Part shown: positions 8,950 to 15,658 of the stretch, one piece after another
Position numbering within the stretch: the stretch's first letter is position 1
Layout: every line of letters starts with the position of its first letter
NCBI RefSeq assembly: GCF_001953745.1
Contig: NZ_LWLN01000001.1
Location: forward strand, 124,001-188,000
Source of the DNA: Natrinema saccharevitans
Lineage (GTDB): Archaea; Halobacteriota; Halobacteria; Halobacteriales; Natrialbaceae
Direction of reading: 5' to 3'
Length of the DNA stretch: 64,000 nt
Notes under the pieces: generated by a model
What the model saw: only the letters and a program-made list of their open reading frames with translations
Database searches by the model: none
What the model was told of the DNA's origin: nothing
Made by a program: the position numbers and the translations under genes

Positions 8950-9573
8950 ATGGGACTTCTCGAGAACAAGGCCCGCGCTCGACTGTTCTATAAGTACCTC
9001 TCGCGGGTCTACGATCAGGTCAACCCGTTCGTCTGGACCGAAGAGATGCGCGCCGAGGCCCTGTCCCTGCTCGAGTTAGAGGCCGACATGACGGTACTCG
9101 ACGTCGGCTGTGGCACCGGGTTCGCCACCGAGGGACTGCTCGAACACGTCGACGAGGTGTACGCGCTCGACCAGAGCGAACACCAGCTCGAACAGGCCTA
9201 CGAGAAGTTCGGCAAACGCGGCCCGCCGGTCCACTTCCACCGCGGCGACGCCGAACGGTTGCCCTTTGCGACTGACACGTTCGACGTCGTCTGGTCGTCG
9301 GGTTCGATCGAGTACTGGCCGAACCCGATCCTCGCGCTCCGGGAGTTCCGCCGCGTCCTCAAACCCGGCGGACAGGTGCTGGTCGTCGGTCCGAACTACC
9401 CCGACAACGTCGTCAGTCAACTGCTCGCCGACTCGATCATGCTCTTTTACGACGAGTACGAGGCCGACCGGATGTTCAAAACTGCCGGCTTCGAGAACGT
9501 GAAACACGCCTTCATGGGGCCGTCCTACGAACCCGACGTCGCGATCACGACGATCGGTCGCGCGCCCGAGTAG
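8950..9573 (+). CDS. class I SAM-dependent methyltransferase, MPBQ/MSBQ-methyltransferase-like
   Basis: 207 residues from ATG 8950. Motif I VLDVGCGTG is at residues 49-57, the acidic end of strand 2 is in ALDQSEHQLEQA, and later motifs are GDAERLPF and GSIEYWPNP followed by FRRVLKPGGQVLVVGPNYP. The GSIEYWP segment, LDQSxHQL and the tail containing FKTAGFENVK and GPSYEPDV match, as I recall them, the plant chloroplast enzyme that methylates plastoquinone and tocopherol precursors (VTE3 type). In a haloarchaeon the likely substrate is a demethylmenaquinone or other prenylated quinol; this is inference. The frame is open upstream to 8812, but the TATA-like box supports the start used here. Confidence 0.8.
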   Translation: MGLLENKARARLFYKYLSRVYDQVNPFVWTEEMRAEALSLLELEADMTVLDVGCGTGFATEGLLEHVDEVYALDQSEHQLEQAYEKFGKRGPPVHFHRGDAERLPFATDTFDVVWSSGSIEYWPNPILALREFRRVLKPGGQVLVVGPNYPDNVVSQLLADSIMLFYDEYEADRMFKTAGFENVKHAFMGPSYEPDVAITTIGRAPE

Positions 9574-9579
9574 CCCGGT

Positions 9580-10089
9580 TCACGTCGCCGACGTCTCGAG
9601 AGTGGCTATCTGCCGGTCGTCGACAGCGAGCGTGACGGTAACGGAATCGCCCGGCGAAAGCTCCGGCTGGTTCGTCGTCGCGAGCGAGAGGCCGGCCCGT
9701 TCGCCACTCGTCCACTCGGACTCCGCCTCGGCGTTGAACGGTCCCGACGGCATGCCATCGAACCCGCTCGCACCGACGAACGGCACTGGCGGCTGGTCGT
9801 CGAGTTCCCGCCCGTCGATCGCGATCGTCACCGACAGTTCGTCAACGTCGATCGGGTCGCCGGCGACGTGTTCGATGTCGAGCGTCGACGCCGACCCGTT
9901 CGCCGCGAGGTCGAACGTCGCCGTCGGCCTCGGGGACGCGATCGACCACGCCCCGACGCCGACGACGAGGACCCCCGCCAGACAGACGGTCAAAGTGAGG
10001 AGCGTGAGGACGCCGAGAACCGGGCTGATACCGCGTCGACCCTCCGCTTCCGGCTGTCCTCGAACCCGACGGCCTCGTAGTGTACGCAT
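9580..10089 (-). CDS. archaeal type IV pilin (DUF1628-type N terminus)
   Basis: 169 residues. The N terminus is basic (MRTLRGRRVRGQPEAEGRRG), then ISPVLGVLTLLTLTVCLAGVLV forms the hydrophobic helix. RRG before ISPV is the archaeal prepilin peptidase site, with predicted cleavage after Gly20. The rest is a beta-rich extracellular domain. A TATATAAAT-like box near 10112-10119 on the minus strand implies a leaderless transcript. It probably forms a minor pilin or a surface protein anchored by a pilin-type helix; no other pilus genes are adjacent. Confidence 0.8.
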   Translation of the reverse strand: MRTLRGRRVRGQPEAEGRRGISPVLGVLTLLTLTVCLAGVLVVGVGAWSIASPRPTATFDLAANGSASTLDIEHVAGDPIDVDELSVTIAIDGRELDDQPPVPFVGASGFDGMPSGPFNAEAESEWTSGERAGLSLATTNQPELSPGDSVTVTLAVDDRQIATLETSAT

Positions 10090-10231
10090 TGCCGGTCTTG
10101 GGCGCGCTTTCCGATATAAATCCTCCCCGGTCGCCGCGCACCGTCTCGGCGACGAAATTCACCGGTCATCCGATCGCACGATGGCGTCGCGATCGGTACG
10201 CAACGCGGCCACAGCCGGGACCGTCCGTCGA

Positions 10232-11425
10232 TCAGTCGACGGTGATCGTAGCGTTGACCGTTCTGTCGTTCGACTCGACCGCTAGGTCGTACCCGTCGGC
10301 TGGTGGAACGAGCCACAGCGCTCCGTCTTCGCCCGTCGATCCGAGTTCGGCACCGTCGGCGGTGACCGTCGCGTCGACGGGTTCGCCGCTCTCCGAGTCG
10401 GTCACCTGGACCTCGATCGGCCCGTTGGCCGGCGTCTCGTTGATCGTCATCTCGAGGCCGTCCTCCGACCACGTGCCGCCGTCGGTCACGGGAAGCGAGT
10501 CGGTCGACAGCACTTGTATCTCATGGTAGACGTCTCCGGTATCGCCGTCGAAATAGAACTCGAGGCGACCCTGATCATGGGCCATCTCCGCCCAGTAGTA
10601 GTCGGGGCTGTTGTCCTGGAAGTGAGGGCCGAACTCGCTCGCCCACGGGTAGAGTTCGGAGACGTGGTCGTACGCCTCGCCGTCGTCGAACCGGTTTCGG
10701 TCCGTTTCGCCGCGCGCATCGAACCGGGTTGTTTCGACGACGTACTGGCTCCCGTCTATCATCGCGACGCTGTATCCGCTCTGCGAGGTCGAGACGACGA
10801 CCTCGTCACCCGCCGTCGTGACCTGCTGCTCGAGGTTCGATCGGAGGGGCGTCTGGTGCTTCTCGAGGGCCTTGTACGTCGCCCGAACCTGGCCCGATGA
10901 CAGGGAATACCCGGGCACCCGATCTGCGCGGTCCTCCAGCACGGCGATGTGTTCCGAGAGGACCTCCGCTTCGTGCTGGTTCCGTACCAACGTCCGTAGC
11001 AGTGCCGTCGACGAGCGATCGCCGGCGGCGTGCTCTCTCACCGCCCGCCGCTCGCGTTCTTCGAGGTCGTCGATGCGGTCGGTGAGCCGATCGTACGCCG
11101 CCTGAATCATCGCCGTTCGTTCGTCAGCGCTCGCAGCTTCGAACCCGTCGTCGACGACCGCGTACTGCGTGTGATCGACCCGAAGCTCGTCGTCCGCGCT
11201 CGCGAGTTCGGTACCGAGCCCGCCGCTGTACCCGGCGTGTTCGCTTCTGATCTCGCCCGAGAGTTCGAGGCGGTTCGTCGTGTTCTCGAGCTCGGTCGGC
11301 GATTGGAGCGCCGGCTCCCGTTGGAGGGCGTAGGAGTCGCCGTCAGCGGTCGCCGCTGTGGCCACCGTCGCGGGCACTGCGAGGACGAGAAGCACGGCGA
11401 GAAGGGCCGATGTCGCCTCGTTCAT
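10232..11425 (-). CDS. exported haloarchaeal coiled-coil protein with C-terminal Ig-like domain (unknown function)
   Basis: 397 residues. A signal peptide covers about residues 1-24 (ALLAVLLVLAVPATVATA). Residues 90-180 are helical and charged (TAMIQAAYDRLTDRIDDLEERERR), predicted coiled coil. The C-terminal 80 residues (IEVQVTDSESGEPVDATVT, ending AVESNDRTVNATITVD) resemble a carboxypeptidase-regulatory or Ig-like fold. No catalytic motif was seen. It may belong to the DUF7096/DUF7094 haloarchaeal families, but that is from memory. It diverges from the membrane regulator at 11595; a TTTTTGTATC box at about 11445-11455 on the minus strand serves this gene. Confidence 0.7.
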   Translation of the reverse strand: MNEATSALLAVLLVLAVPATVATAATADGDSYALQREPALQSPTELENTTNRLELSGEIRSEHAGYSGGLGTELASADDELRVDHTQYAVVDDGFEAASADERTAMIQAAYDRLTDRIDDLEERERRAVREHAAGDRSSTALLRTLVRNQHEAEVLSEHIAVLEDRADRVPGYSLSSGQVRATYKALEKHQTPLRSNLEQQVTTAGDEVVVSTSQSGYSVAMIDGSQYVVETTRFDARGETDRNRFDDGEAYDHVSELYPWASEFGPHFQDNSPDYYWAEMAHDQGRLEFYFDGDTGDVYHEIQVLSTDSLPVTDGGTWSEDGLEMTINETPANGPIEVQVTDSESGEPVDATVTADGAELGSTGEDGALWLVPPADGYDLAVESNDRTVNATITVD

Positions 11426-11594
11426 CGTACCACGATACGAACTCCTGATACAAAAACGGGTCGTCTGCCGTCGGACACCGAATCGTCTCGTTTTAGTAAC
11501 CGATTACGGGCGGCGAGACCCATCAGCGCCGGTAGTAACACTTTATTTTTCGATGGAAAGGGTTTTTTCCCCCGGCGGAACACCTGTTGTACGT

Positions 11595-12866
11595 ATGCGG
11601 ATTTCCACTGCCGCTGCGGTCGCCCTCACAGTCCTCCTCGCGATGGCCAGTTTCGGGGCAGTGGCTGCGATGCCGCCCGCCGATCGGTCCCCGTCAGCGT
11701 CGTCCCACTCGTTTCAGTCGGACGAACGCCCTCCGTCAGTCTCGTCGACGCAGGAGTCGCCCCCACCCCTCGAGAGTCCCGAACCCGGACAGGTCGTCCG
11801 GGTTCGGATCACCGACGACGGAGACGCGAGGTGGTCCGTCGAGACTCGATTTCTGATCACTAACGAGACGGAGGCCGATCTCTTCCGCGAATACGGCGGT
11901 GCGATCGTGTCCGGCCGGCGAGCGGCCCCGTACGATCCGCGACTGTTCCAACGGTACGCGGCCGACGCGTCGGAGTCGACCGGCCGCGAGATGTCGATCG
12001 AGAACGCCGGCTGGGACGATCAGCGGATCGAACGGGCCGAAACGGACGCGGAGTCCGAGAGCGGTTCCGACGCCCGAATCGGTATCGTCTCGTACTCGTT
12101 CACCTGGACGAACTTCGCCGAGATCGACGGCGACCGGATGTACGCCGGCGATACAGTCCCCGTTATCGGGACACTGTCGGAGGACCAGCGTCTCGTCGTC
12201 GACCCGCCGGAGAACTACGGCTTCGTGGACGCCCCGACCGGAACGGACGACGGAGCGCTCGTCTGGGACGGGCCGCACACGTTCCGGAGCGAGGGACTCG
12301 AGATCACCATGCTCCGCGGGGCCGGCGCCGGCGGCGGCGATCCCCCACTGCTCTCCGGGACAGGATGGCTGCTCGTCGCGCTCGTCGCGCTACTCGTCGG
12401 CGTAAGCGGGTACCTCGTTGTCCGACGGGACGACGTACACGTCCCGCGGTCGCCCGACAGGCTCGCGGCGCTCGTCGAATCGGTCGACGTTTCGAACCCG
12501 TTCGACCGCGACAAGTCCGACGTGGCCGCCACCGACGGGAACGGTGGAACCGACCCGGCGTCGCCGACGGCCGCGACCGACGATCCCGATGCCGAGCCCG
12601 ACACGCACCTCGAGTACGACGAGCGGTCGTCCGACGACGCGGTCGATCCCGAACTGCTGAGCGACGAGGAGCGCGTCCTCCGCTTGCTCAAACAAAACGG
12701 CGGCCGGATGAAGCAGGCCTCGATCGTCTCGGAGACCGGCTGGTCGAACGCCAAGGTCTCCCAACTCCTCTCGCAGATGGACGACGACGACGAGATAGAT
12801 AAACTCCGGATCGGTCGGGAGAACCTCATCACGCTACCGGGCGTCGATCCGACCGAACTCGACTGA
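11595..12866 (+). CDS. membrane-anchored winged-helix regulator with an extracytoplasmic sensor domain
   Basis: 423 residues from ATG 11595. A signal or anchor helix covers residues 5-26 (AAAVALTVLLAMASFGAVAA), then about 225 extracytoplasmic residues, a transmembrane helix at about 255-275 (GWLLVALVALLVGVSGYLVV), an acidic cytoplasmic linker and a C-terminal winged helix at about 354-415 (SDEERVLRLLKQNGGRMK, then SETGWSNAKVSQLLSQM). This architecture is a one-component sensor: an outside signal read by a membrane-tied DNA-binding domain. Similar haloarchaeal proteins carry DUF7345/DUF7343-type labels. The frame is open upstream to 11358, but a CTTTATTTTTC box at about 11540-11550 lies between, so the shorter start is used. 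Confidence 0.75.
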   Translation: MRISTAAAVALTVLLAMASFGAVAAMPPADRSPSASSHSFQSDERPPSVSSTQESPPPLESPEPGQVVRVRITDDGDARWSVETRFLITNETEADLFREYGGAIVSGRRAAPYDPRLFQRYAADASESTGREMSIENAGWDDQRIERAETDAESESGSDARIGIVSYSFTWTNFAEIDGDRMYAGDTVPVIGTLSEDQRLVVDPPENYGFVDAPTGTDDGALVWDGPHTFRSEGLEITMLRGAGAGGGDPPLLSGTGWLLVALVALLVGVSGYLVVRRDDVHVPRSPDRLAALVESVDVSNPFDRDKSDVAATDGNGGTDPASPTAATDDPDAEPDTHLEYDERSSDDAVDPELLSDEERVLRLLKQNGGRMKQASIVSETGWSNAKVSQLLSQMDDDDEIDKLRIGRENLITLPGVDPTELD

Positions 12867-14071: not shown

Positions 14072-15658
14072 ATGTCCCCGGGGATCCGCGTCCTCTGTGT
14101 CGATGCCGACCCCCAATACCGCGAGCTGACCGCCACCGTTCTCGAGCGACGGAACGACGAGATCGACGTGACGACCGCGGCCAACGGCCGCGACGCGCTG
14201 GCGGTTTTCGACGGCGCGAGCGACGGTCCCGGCCGACCGATCGACTGCGTCGTCAGCGACTACGAGCTGCCGGACACGGACGGCCTCGAGCTGTTCGCGG
14301 CGGTACGGGAGCGCGATCCGGCAGTCCCGTTCGTCCTCTTCACCGGAACGGAGCCCGACGAGATTGCGAGCGAGGCGATCTCGGCCGGCGTTACCGACTA
14401 TCGCCGAAAGTGGTCGGGAACCGCTCAGTACACGGTACTCGCAAACCGGATCGAGAACGCCGTCGTGAACCGCCGTGCCGAACGGGTTCGCCGCGAGAGC
14501 GAACGGCAACTCGAGCGATACCGGACCCCCGTCGGGAACGATCGAATCCTCGAACTCGTACCGACCGCGCTGTTCACCCTCGACGCGGACGCCGTCATCG
14601 ACTGGTGTAACGACGAGTTCGCCGACCCCTTCCTCGAGGAGCGAACGGAACTGATCGGAACGCCGTTTCCGGCCCTCATCGATCGCGGCTACTACGGCGA
14701 GTCGGTAACGACCAAGTACGTCGAGGAAGTCCGCGATCTGCTCTCCTCGGCGACTGACCGCGAGCGGGCGAAGTATCAGGTTCGGTTTCAGTCGCCGGAC
14801 GGGGAGGAGCGGATCCACGACGTCCACACCAGACTTCTGCCGCTCGATAGTGGAGAGTTCACCGGGACGATACACGCGATTCGGGACGTCACGCGCCGGC
14901 GACGCTACCGACGCGAACTCGAGCGCCAGAACGAGCGGTTAGCGGAGTTCGCGACCCTCGTCAGTCACGACCTGCGGAACCCGCTGAACGTCGCACAGGG
15001 CAATCTCGATTTCATCGAGGGAGAGGCCGAGGACCACCGCGTCGAGAAATTGCAGCGGTCGCTCGCCCGGATCGAGGAACTCATCGATGGACTCCTCCAG
15101 CTGGCCCGGCAGGGGAAAGCGATCGGCGACGAGGAGCGGTTTCCGCTCGCGGCCACGGTCCGAGCGGCCTGGGCGACCGTCGACACCGGCGACGCCCGCC
15201 TCGAGATCGAAACCGACCTCGAACTGTACGGCGACGAGACCCGTGTTCGATCGCTGCTCGAGAACCTCTTTCGAAACACCGTCGAACACGGCTCGACGAG
15301 CCCTGCTTCGCACGCGCAGCAGGACGCCGTCGAACAGGGGTGCGACGACGATCGCCTGACCGTCACCGTCGGGCCGCTCGAGCGAAAGTCCCAGTCTACC
15401 GGCAGCGGCGACCGCTTCGACGGCTTCTACGTCGAGGATACGGGCGCGGGGCTGCCGGCGGATCGCGAATCGTTGTTCGAATTCGGTCACACGACCGCGG
15501 CGGAGGGGACCGGGTTCGGGCTGGCGATCGTCGAGGGGATCGCCGAGGCCCACGGCTGGACCGTCGCCGCGTGCGACGGCGACGACGGCGGTGCGCGGTT
15601 CGAGTTCCGGGACGTCGCCGTTCCGACCGACGGGACGAAATCGGCGCGATCGACGTAG
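14072..15658 (+). CDS. receiver-PAS-histidine kinase (haloarchaeal sensor kinase)
   Basis: 528 residues. The N-terminal receiver domain has the acidic pair D11/D13 and phosphoacceptor D63 in VVSDYELPDTDG. A PAS domain (about residues 155-275) carries LVPTALFTLDADAVIDW. The HisKA helix has H299 in VSHDLRNPLNVAQG, and the ATPase domain shows the N box NLFRNTVEH (about 396-404), DTGAGLP and GTGFGLAIVEGI. No transmembrane helix is seen, so it is a soluble kinase sensing a cytoplasmic signal. No separate response regulator is adjacent. The second kinase in this window (36203) shares almost the same H-box and linker. Confidence 0.92.
   Translation: MSPGIRVLCVDADPQYRELTATVLERRNDEIDVTTAANGRDALAVFDGASDGPGRPIDCVVSDYELPDTDGLELFAAVRERDPAVPFVLFTGTEPDEIASEAISAGVTDYRRKWSGTAQYTVLANRIENAVVNRRAERVRRESERQLERYRTPVGNDRILELVPTALFTLDADAVIDWCNDEFADPFLEERTELIGTPFPALIDRGYYGESVTTKYVEEVRDLLSSATDRERAKYQVRFQSPDGEERIHDVHTRLLPLDSGEFTGTIHAIRDVTRRRRYRRELERQNERLAEFATLVSHDLRNPLNVAQGNLDFIEGEAEDHRVEKLQRSLARIEELIDGLLQLARQGKAIGDEERFPLAATVRAAWATVDTGDARLEIETDLELYGDETRVRSLLENLFRNTVEHGSTSPASHAQQDAVEQGCDDDRLTVTVGPLERKSQSTGSGDRFDGFYVEDTGAGLPADRESLFEFGHTTAAEGTGFGLAIVEGIAEAHGWTVAACDGDDGGARFEFRDVAVPTDGTKSARST

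Follow-up and report, generated by a model that had tools for sequence, protein, structure and literature searches.

Transmembrane transcription regulators (TTRs) are described by Demey et al. (2023, PMC10269533) as proteins that hold a predicted membrane region and a DNA-binding domain in one chain. In the main text and Table 1 of that article, single-pass proteins are the commonest kind, some TTRs have a partner encoded alongside (ToxS, TcpH and VtrC), and ToxR/ToxS and TcpP/TcpH combine a membrane transcription factor with an adjacent gene for its cognate outside partner; no word beginning with "halo" occurs in the main text. ArnR and ArnR1 of Sulfolobus are archaeal membrane-bound one-component regulators (PMC6396743). 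ArnR binds the promoters of archaellum and pilus genes (PMC6396743, PMC13286277), the helix-turn-helix of ArnR and ArnR1 lies in the N-terminal region and they undergo Ser/Thr kinase phosphorylation (PMC13286277), and the passages of the two articles that deal with them mention no exported partner gene. Here we compare with these systems a gene block in a 64,000-nucleotide window of the 3.98-Mb genome of the haloarchaeon Natrinema saccharevitans (G000:C1:124001-188000), in which the gene for a membrane-anchored regulator is divergent from the gene for an exported protein with the domains DUF7096, DUF7094 and Fn3_arc, followed on the same strand by a pilin-type gene.

Both sequence features of a TTR are present in the regulator, namely a predicted membrane helix (residues 257-280) and a DUF7343 winged helix, and like the commonest TTRs it is single-pass. 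It differs in that the sensor comes first and the DNA-binding domain last, the two being DUF7345 and DUF7343. As in ToxR/ToxS-type systems, the partner is encoded beside the regulator (in 72 of 80 loci, elsewhere in 5 more genomes, and for 27 of 29 DUF7096 matches in a domain survey). In ToxR, the DNA-binding domain is N-terminal and cytoplasmic, and ToxS is a membrane protein. TcpH is a membrane protein as well (PMC11323476). Unlike these partners, the exported DUF7096 protein has a predicted signal peptide only, and unlike ToxR, the regulator carries its DNA-binding domain, which is of another family, at the C-terminus (residues 354-415). The C-terminal winged helix also separates it from ArnR and ArnR1. 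Because of this position of the DNA-binding domain, the regulator is neither ToxR nor ArnR. We read the block, with a probability of roughly 0.6, as encoding a one-component transmembrane transcription regulator with a dedicated exported partner, a system of ToxR/ToxS-like logic that is not a member of that family. Its parts lie in the window as follows.

8950-9573, plus strand: menG-like methyltransferase gene, found by domain search; a neighbour, kept as the anchor for comparison
9580-10089, minus strand: pilin-type protein gene; open reading frame (ORF) of 169 amino acids with a Pilin_N match and an R-R-G-I-S-P motif before a hydrophobic stretch
10232-11425, minus strand: gene for the exported partner, DUF7096-DUF7094-Fn3_arc; ORF of 397 amino acids
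11426-11594, no strand: divergent promoter region, 169 bp between the two ATGs; this spacer was compared in 73 loci including the window
11447-11456, minus strand: TATA-like box TTTTTGTATC, about 22-31 nt upstream of the ATG of the DUF7096 gene
11552-11567, plus strand: conserved box GATGGAAAGGGTTTTT, 43 nt upstream of the regulator ATG, from a motif over 69 upstream regions
11595-12866, plus strand: gene for the membrane-anchored regulator; ORF of 423 amino acids, with a predicted signal peptide at about residues 1-20
11799-12218, plus strand: DUF7345 sensor-side domain of the regulator, residues 69-208, from a Pfam match and the model
12363-12434, plus strand: predicted membrane helix of the regulator, residues 257-280, from the AlphaFold2 model and the hydrophobic sequence
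12654-12839, plus strand: DUF7343 winged helix of the regulator, residues 354-415, from Pfam and from structure matches of the MarR/ArsR winged-helix type with Z of about 10

All three ORFs are present where the original prediction placed them and in the relative orientation that it gave, and the divergent spacing, put there at about 170 bases, measures 169 bp (11426-11594). It had further proposed that neighbourhood of the families in other genomes be checked. When the source genome and 40 relatives were searched, the top matches to the regulator and to the exported protein lay side by side in divergent orientation in all 25 of 25 genomes of the genus, and G039, a distant genome, showed the same arrangement; the cut-off for the regulator was strict, at 1e-45, and uninformative for the other distant genomes. 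Five loci came from other families, three of which (L037, L040, L041) keep all four genes in the same order, as judged by eye, while L038 and L039 show part of the gene block within 1.5-kb flanks.

As an independent anchor, contigs were scanned with the menG-like methyltransferase, and the best 80 of 504 relatives, chosen by methyltransferase similarity, were retained. Single-sequence searches of these loci and the window (81 in total) found the regulator in 75, the DUF7096 protein in 74 and the pilin in 71. Profiles built from these first matches were then applied to the 80 loci: all four genes are present in 67 and all but a recognised pilin in 5, the DUF7096 gene is lacking in 2 and the regulator in 1, and 5 hold the methyltransferase alone. 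Wherever regulator and DUF7096 gene occur together in these loci, they are divergent (72/72). Single-sequence searches for neighbouring genes, run as controls on the same 80 loci, recovered the radical S-adenosylmethionine (SAM) gene in 12, the histidine kinase in 3, the geranylgeranyl diphosphate (GGPP) synthase in 35 and atpH in 60. The genomes of the eight exceptions were searched with both profiles. In L097, L125 and L137 the pair is together and divergent at a distance from the methyltransferase; in L081 and L105 it is together, and the methyltransferase contigs end too early to exclude an assembly gap. Both genes were thus found in 80/80 genomes, adjacent somewhere in 77. At order level, profile searches gave regulator-like matches and no strong DUF7096 match in G032, G033, G034 and G038. 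The arrangement of regulator and DUF7096 gene is not due to chance, since it is divergent in 25/25 genus genomes and in 72/80 loci reached through a different gene. The proposed grouping therefore survived its check for the pair, with 72 of 80 loci divergent and 5 more adjacent; its third member, the pilin, is less fixed, with four loci in which none was found and one carrying a stop.

The pair also recurs at other loci. A domain survey covered a phylum sample of 100 genomes, 15 of them from this order, and 14 control genomes. DUF7096 matches occurred in all 15 order genomes and weakly in one other (G153), and DUF7345 in 28; Haloferax volcanii is the sole control genome with a match to one or the other. 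A DUF7345 match stands no more than 2 kb away from 27 of the 29 DUF7096 matches, in 16 cases on the opposite strand and in 11 on the same one; the two without such a neighbour are weak matches. Seen from the other side, the 15 order genomes hold 41 DUF7345 matches, 28 of which have a DUF7096 neighbour. The source genome itself has three DUF7096 matches, each beside a regulator (the window, L155 and L156). The DUF7096-like protein at L156:4165-4863 scores below the DUF7096 cut-off (22.7 vs 27 bits); its relatives, which were found in 50 of 61 genomes, score between 1e-8 and 1e-15 against a DUF7096-family profile within a small set of ORFs, and a regulator paralogue stands on the same strand beside the L156-type protein in 30/30 loci among the best-scoring matches. 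The L155 copy, of 666 amino acids with a very acidic tail, received no DUF7096 call as a whole and 33.2 bits after removal of the tail, and it aligns with the DUF7096 family over 317 columns with a probability of 98.7.

Three further arrangements were observed in these surveys. At L155:6677-10669, a third regulator is divergent from the 666-residue DUF7096 protein with its long Asp/Glu-rich tail, and the protein encoded next has DUF7345 as its only domain, together with a PGF-CTERM anchor motif. At L158:2283-4993, the gene for an exported acidic DUF7282 protein is preceded on its own strand by one for a short winged-helix protein that has DUF7343 and apparent membrane segments but lacks DUF7345; this is perhaps another exported-partner arrangement. 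Outside the order and within the same phylum, G153 holds five DUF7345 matches (contigs C4, C15, C16), one of which has a weak DUF7096 match at a distance of 1 kb. Because G153 holds DUF7345 and this weak neighbour, the pairing may predate the haloarchaeal order.

The regulator had been predicted to possess an outside domain, one membrane helix and a cytoplasmic winged helix, and both Pfam domains and the AlphaFold2 model agree with this topology. DUF7345 and DUF7343 match with E-values of 6.5e-36 and 4.4e-31, respectively, and both are present in 47/47 aligned orthologues. The model, computed from a 47-sequence alignment with a mean predicted local distance difference test (pLDDT) score of 76.6, shows a hydrophobic helix (3-20), a confidently folded ectodomain (about 61-245), a helix at the membrane position (257-280), a low-confidence, disordered linker (281-350) and, at 357-413, a winged helix. 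Structures of the MarR/ArsR type match this winged helix with Z of about 10 in the VIA-align rows that cover it. The whole model gave only meaningless top rows in Foldseek (FMO protein, TM score about 0.13), and sequence searches returned no convincing solved relative for either family, regulator or exported protein. Orthologues hardly differ in the winged helix, the positions of its recognition helix and wing included, and they vary in the ectodomain (mean pairwise difference 0.23 vs 0.67). The recognition helix, nearly fixed among orthologues, differs among the regulator paralogues, which fits separate targets. Judging from the modelled architecture, the regulator is probably equipped to relay conditions outside the cell to DNA with no phosphorylation step.

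The exported partner had been described as an exported coiled-coil protein. Export stands, and the coiled-coil part applies to only a portion of the chain: in the model (mean pLDDT 87.6), a helical domain (about 70-203) is followed by an alpha/beta and an Fn3-like domain. Pfam assigns DUF7096 to residues 1-203 (1.8e-60, 204.8 bits), DUF7094 to 209-312 (8.3e-27, 94 bits) and Fn3_arc to 318-392 (7.1e-28, 96.9 bits), each above its cut-off, and all three were found in 46/46 aligned orthologues (E 0.001). For the Fn3-like domain, the best structure row has Z 11.5 and a root-mean-square deviation of 1.4 over 73 residues. A likeness of the helical domain to the STAT coiled coil (Z about 10) was set aside, as a match of this size is expected for any helical bundle. 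DUF7094 is possibly PepSY-like: the middle domain of an exported-protein paralogue reaches 22.2 bits against PepSY, just under the 24-bit cut-off, and the exported protein model has a YpeB row with Z 7.8; DUF7094 itself gave no PepSY match in the domain search.

In the divergent spacer, the regulator box GATGGAAAGNRTTTTY lies at about -42 and carries 24.1 bits over 16 positions in 69 orthologous upstream regions, 4 of the 73 spacers having been omitted from the motif computation for uncertain starts (L068, L096, L101, L104). The other promoters are weaker, with 13.5 bits for the DUF7096 gene (motif TTTTTGTA at -31 in 69 genes), 15.0 for the methyltransferase and 12.9 for the pilin. At 0 mismatches, the regulator box is single-copy in the source genome. 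A scan of 79 genomes of the class for the pattern ATGGAAAGNRTTTTY found 35 sites, spread over 28 genomes; this genome count is a lower bound because the pattern misses G-ending sites, which are common in the spacers. The reversed control gave 0. Downstream of these sites, in 30 loci, lies the regulator in 21 and a DRG-type GTPase gene in 9 (L225, L230, L232, L235, L242, L243, L244, L248, L254), identified by ORF or start sequence in eight and by start sequence in L225. The distance from box to gene is the same for both genes, about -41 for the 15 bases that they share, and the source genome's own GTPase gene carries the box with one mismatch. An autoregulatory operator was therefore dropped as an explanation of the box, which recurs at the same distance before an unrelated gene. 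Because it also precedes the DRG-type GTPase gene, the box is most likely a strong core promoter comprising a transcription factor B recognition element (BRE) and a TATA box. An imperfect dyad within it (GGAAA...TTTCC) was seen by eye and not used. A second, lineage-limited box, TGACGTTTTAT, was noticed by eye further upstream in the spacer, and in Natrialba and Natronosalvus loci (L096, L098, L100, L138) the spacer measures 332-351 bp as against the usual length of about 170.

The pilin is the looser member of the block, the core being the regulator and the DUF7096 protein. The window's pilin-type protein has a class III signal motif and a Pilin_N match (1.5e-11; 45.4 bits vs a cut-off of 25.2), and of the 72 loci that have the divergent regulator and DUF7096 gene, 67 also yielded a pilin. 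In L083, L086, L090 and L111, the search from the DUF7096 gene up to menG revealed none. In L070 (Haladaptatus halobius), the pilin-type frame between 7633 and 8135 contains an in-frame stop, and the relatives' copies are intact. A strict signal-motif pattern fits 30 of the pilins detected in the 80 loci and the window and does not fit 41 others; in many of the latter, R-A or R-G precedes the hydrophobic stretch, and some fail because of misplaced ORF starts. The gap between DUF7096 and pilin genes has a median of 56 bp and is at most 60 bp in 37/69, so that a single transcript is allowed in many species. In the window, the gap is 142 bp and contains a separate TATA-like box for the pilin gene (10113-10120, minus strand).

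Left of the block, the methyltransferase gene is convergent with the pilin gene and probably lies outside the system; the genes beyond it are read as subunits of an A-type ATPase. A radical SAM gene lies to the right of the regulator. Close to the block, the window also encodes a protein with receiver and histidine-kinase-like parts (14072-15658). Relatives of it occur in only 3/80 loci, and the kinase is therefore not part of the block.

In Haloferax volcanii, HVO_0306/HVO_0307 and HVO_1944/HVO_1945 are very likely the orthologous and a paralogous pair, respectively. HVO_0306-0309 were equated with the block by annotation, gene order and the presence of both families in this species. In the glycoproteomics entries of PMC8241124, which give no function for these pairs, HVO_0306 is a "probable transmembrane glycoprotein/HTH domain protein" and an O-glycopeptide candidate (13 spectra), and HVO_0307 is a secreted N-glycoprotein (3 sites, 201 spectra). 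These two entries speak for export in the pair. HVO_1944, described in the same words as HVO_0306, and HVO_1945 are listed there as N-glycoproteins with 1 and 4 sites. HVO_0309 is a menG candidate (PMC8305020), and a CdrS motif lies at -72 upstream of HVO_1944 (PMC8406309). The open-licence PMC literature yielded no functional study of HVO_0306 and nothing on DUF7343, DUF7345, DUF7096, DUF7094 or HVO_0308.

From the genes, their domains, the class-wide pairing and the pair's recurrence at further loci, we infer a contact, a signal, and a direction and targets of regulation. The regulator would cross the membrane once, with DUF7345 outside and, tethered by a long flexible linker on the inner side, the DUF7343 winged helix, and the exported DUF7096-DUF7094-Fn3 protein would be the cognate outside partner of DUF7345, as co-sensor, ligand or stabiliser. 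A change at the cell surface would alter the physical contact between DUF7345 and the DUF7096 protein, and the membrane-tied winged helix would then change transcription, with the divergent partner gene as the probable target and the pilin gene and the regulator gene itself as possible further ones. That the exported protein takes part in sensing, and is more than a target, is suggested most strongly by the joint recurrence of the two families in either relative orientation. Distances of the ectodomain also correlate with those of the DUF7096 protein beyond the methyltransferase (partial r 0.59, 0.55 and 0.53 for its three domains in 46 species), and the same test for the regulator's own winged helix gave 0.31. 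Several points weigh against this mechanism. The distance correlation is weak evidence because of saturation and the near-invariant winged helix; no operator was identified, and the conserved box is common to the GTPase gene; the pair is split in 3/80 genomes (L082, L085, L124), both genes being present; 13 of the 41 DUF7345 matches in the order genomes lack a DUF7096 neighbour, so the sensor domain can work alone; and the HVO gene numbers were matched via annotation and order, not sequence.

An ordinary local regulator of the exported-protein and pilin genes would give rise to a similar picture, with the exported protein not touching the sensor domain and the pairing reflecting regulator-target linkage. 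A divergent arrangement with a short spacer, as found in 72/80 loci, is typical of a regulator and its target, and another DUF7343 protein of the source genome stands beside an unrelated exported DUF7282 protein (L158). However, promoter linkage alone does not need families that pair on the same strand (11) as well as on opposite strands (16), and we consider this explanation unlikely. The genes could also adjoin merely because the A-ATPase/menG region is conserved in haloarchaea; this region is partly syntenic anyway (atpH 60/80, GGPP synthase 35/80). Such frozen synteny has very little likelihood, and for the regulator/DUF7096 pair it is largely refuted: genes nearer to the pair are less conserved (radical SAM 12/80, kinase 3/80), in L097, L125 and L137 the two genes are neighbours at a site distant from menG, and pairs of the two families also occur at loci that have no relation to it. 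The refutation does not extend to the pilin and the methyltransferase. That the winged helix is a protein-protein or membrane-linked chromosome-contact module instead of a transcription factor domain seems scarcely credible. No operator was found in the spacer and the fold rows include winged helices of other roles (DsrD, ESCRT-II), yet the best structure rows include DNA-binding repressors of the MarR/ArsR type, and near-invariance that extends to the recognition-helix and wing positions and not to the ectodomain (0.23 vs 0.67) argues against it.

Beyond this locus, a regulator with a dedicated exported partner may tentatively be extended to a haloarchaeal family of kinase-free surface-to-gene systems, in which a receptor and transcription factor in one chain (DUF7345, membrane helix, DUF7343) would act with a secreted DUF7096 co-receptor. 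The ancestral pair would be the one near menG, with one or two further pairs per genome whose recognition helices have diverged, each perhaps reading a different surface state and driving its own genes. Little is known about how haloarchaea sense their S-layer, glycan coat and pili. A single-chain outside-to-DNA regulator with the same secreted partner throughout the class would be a small system tractable in Haloferax volcanii, where glycoproteomics has already listed the apparent products. If true, this would provide functions for several Pfam domains of unknown function.

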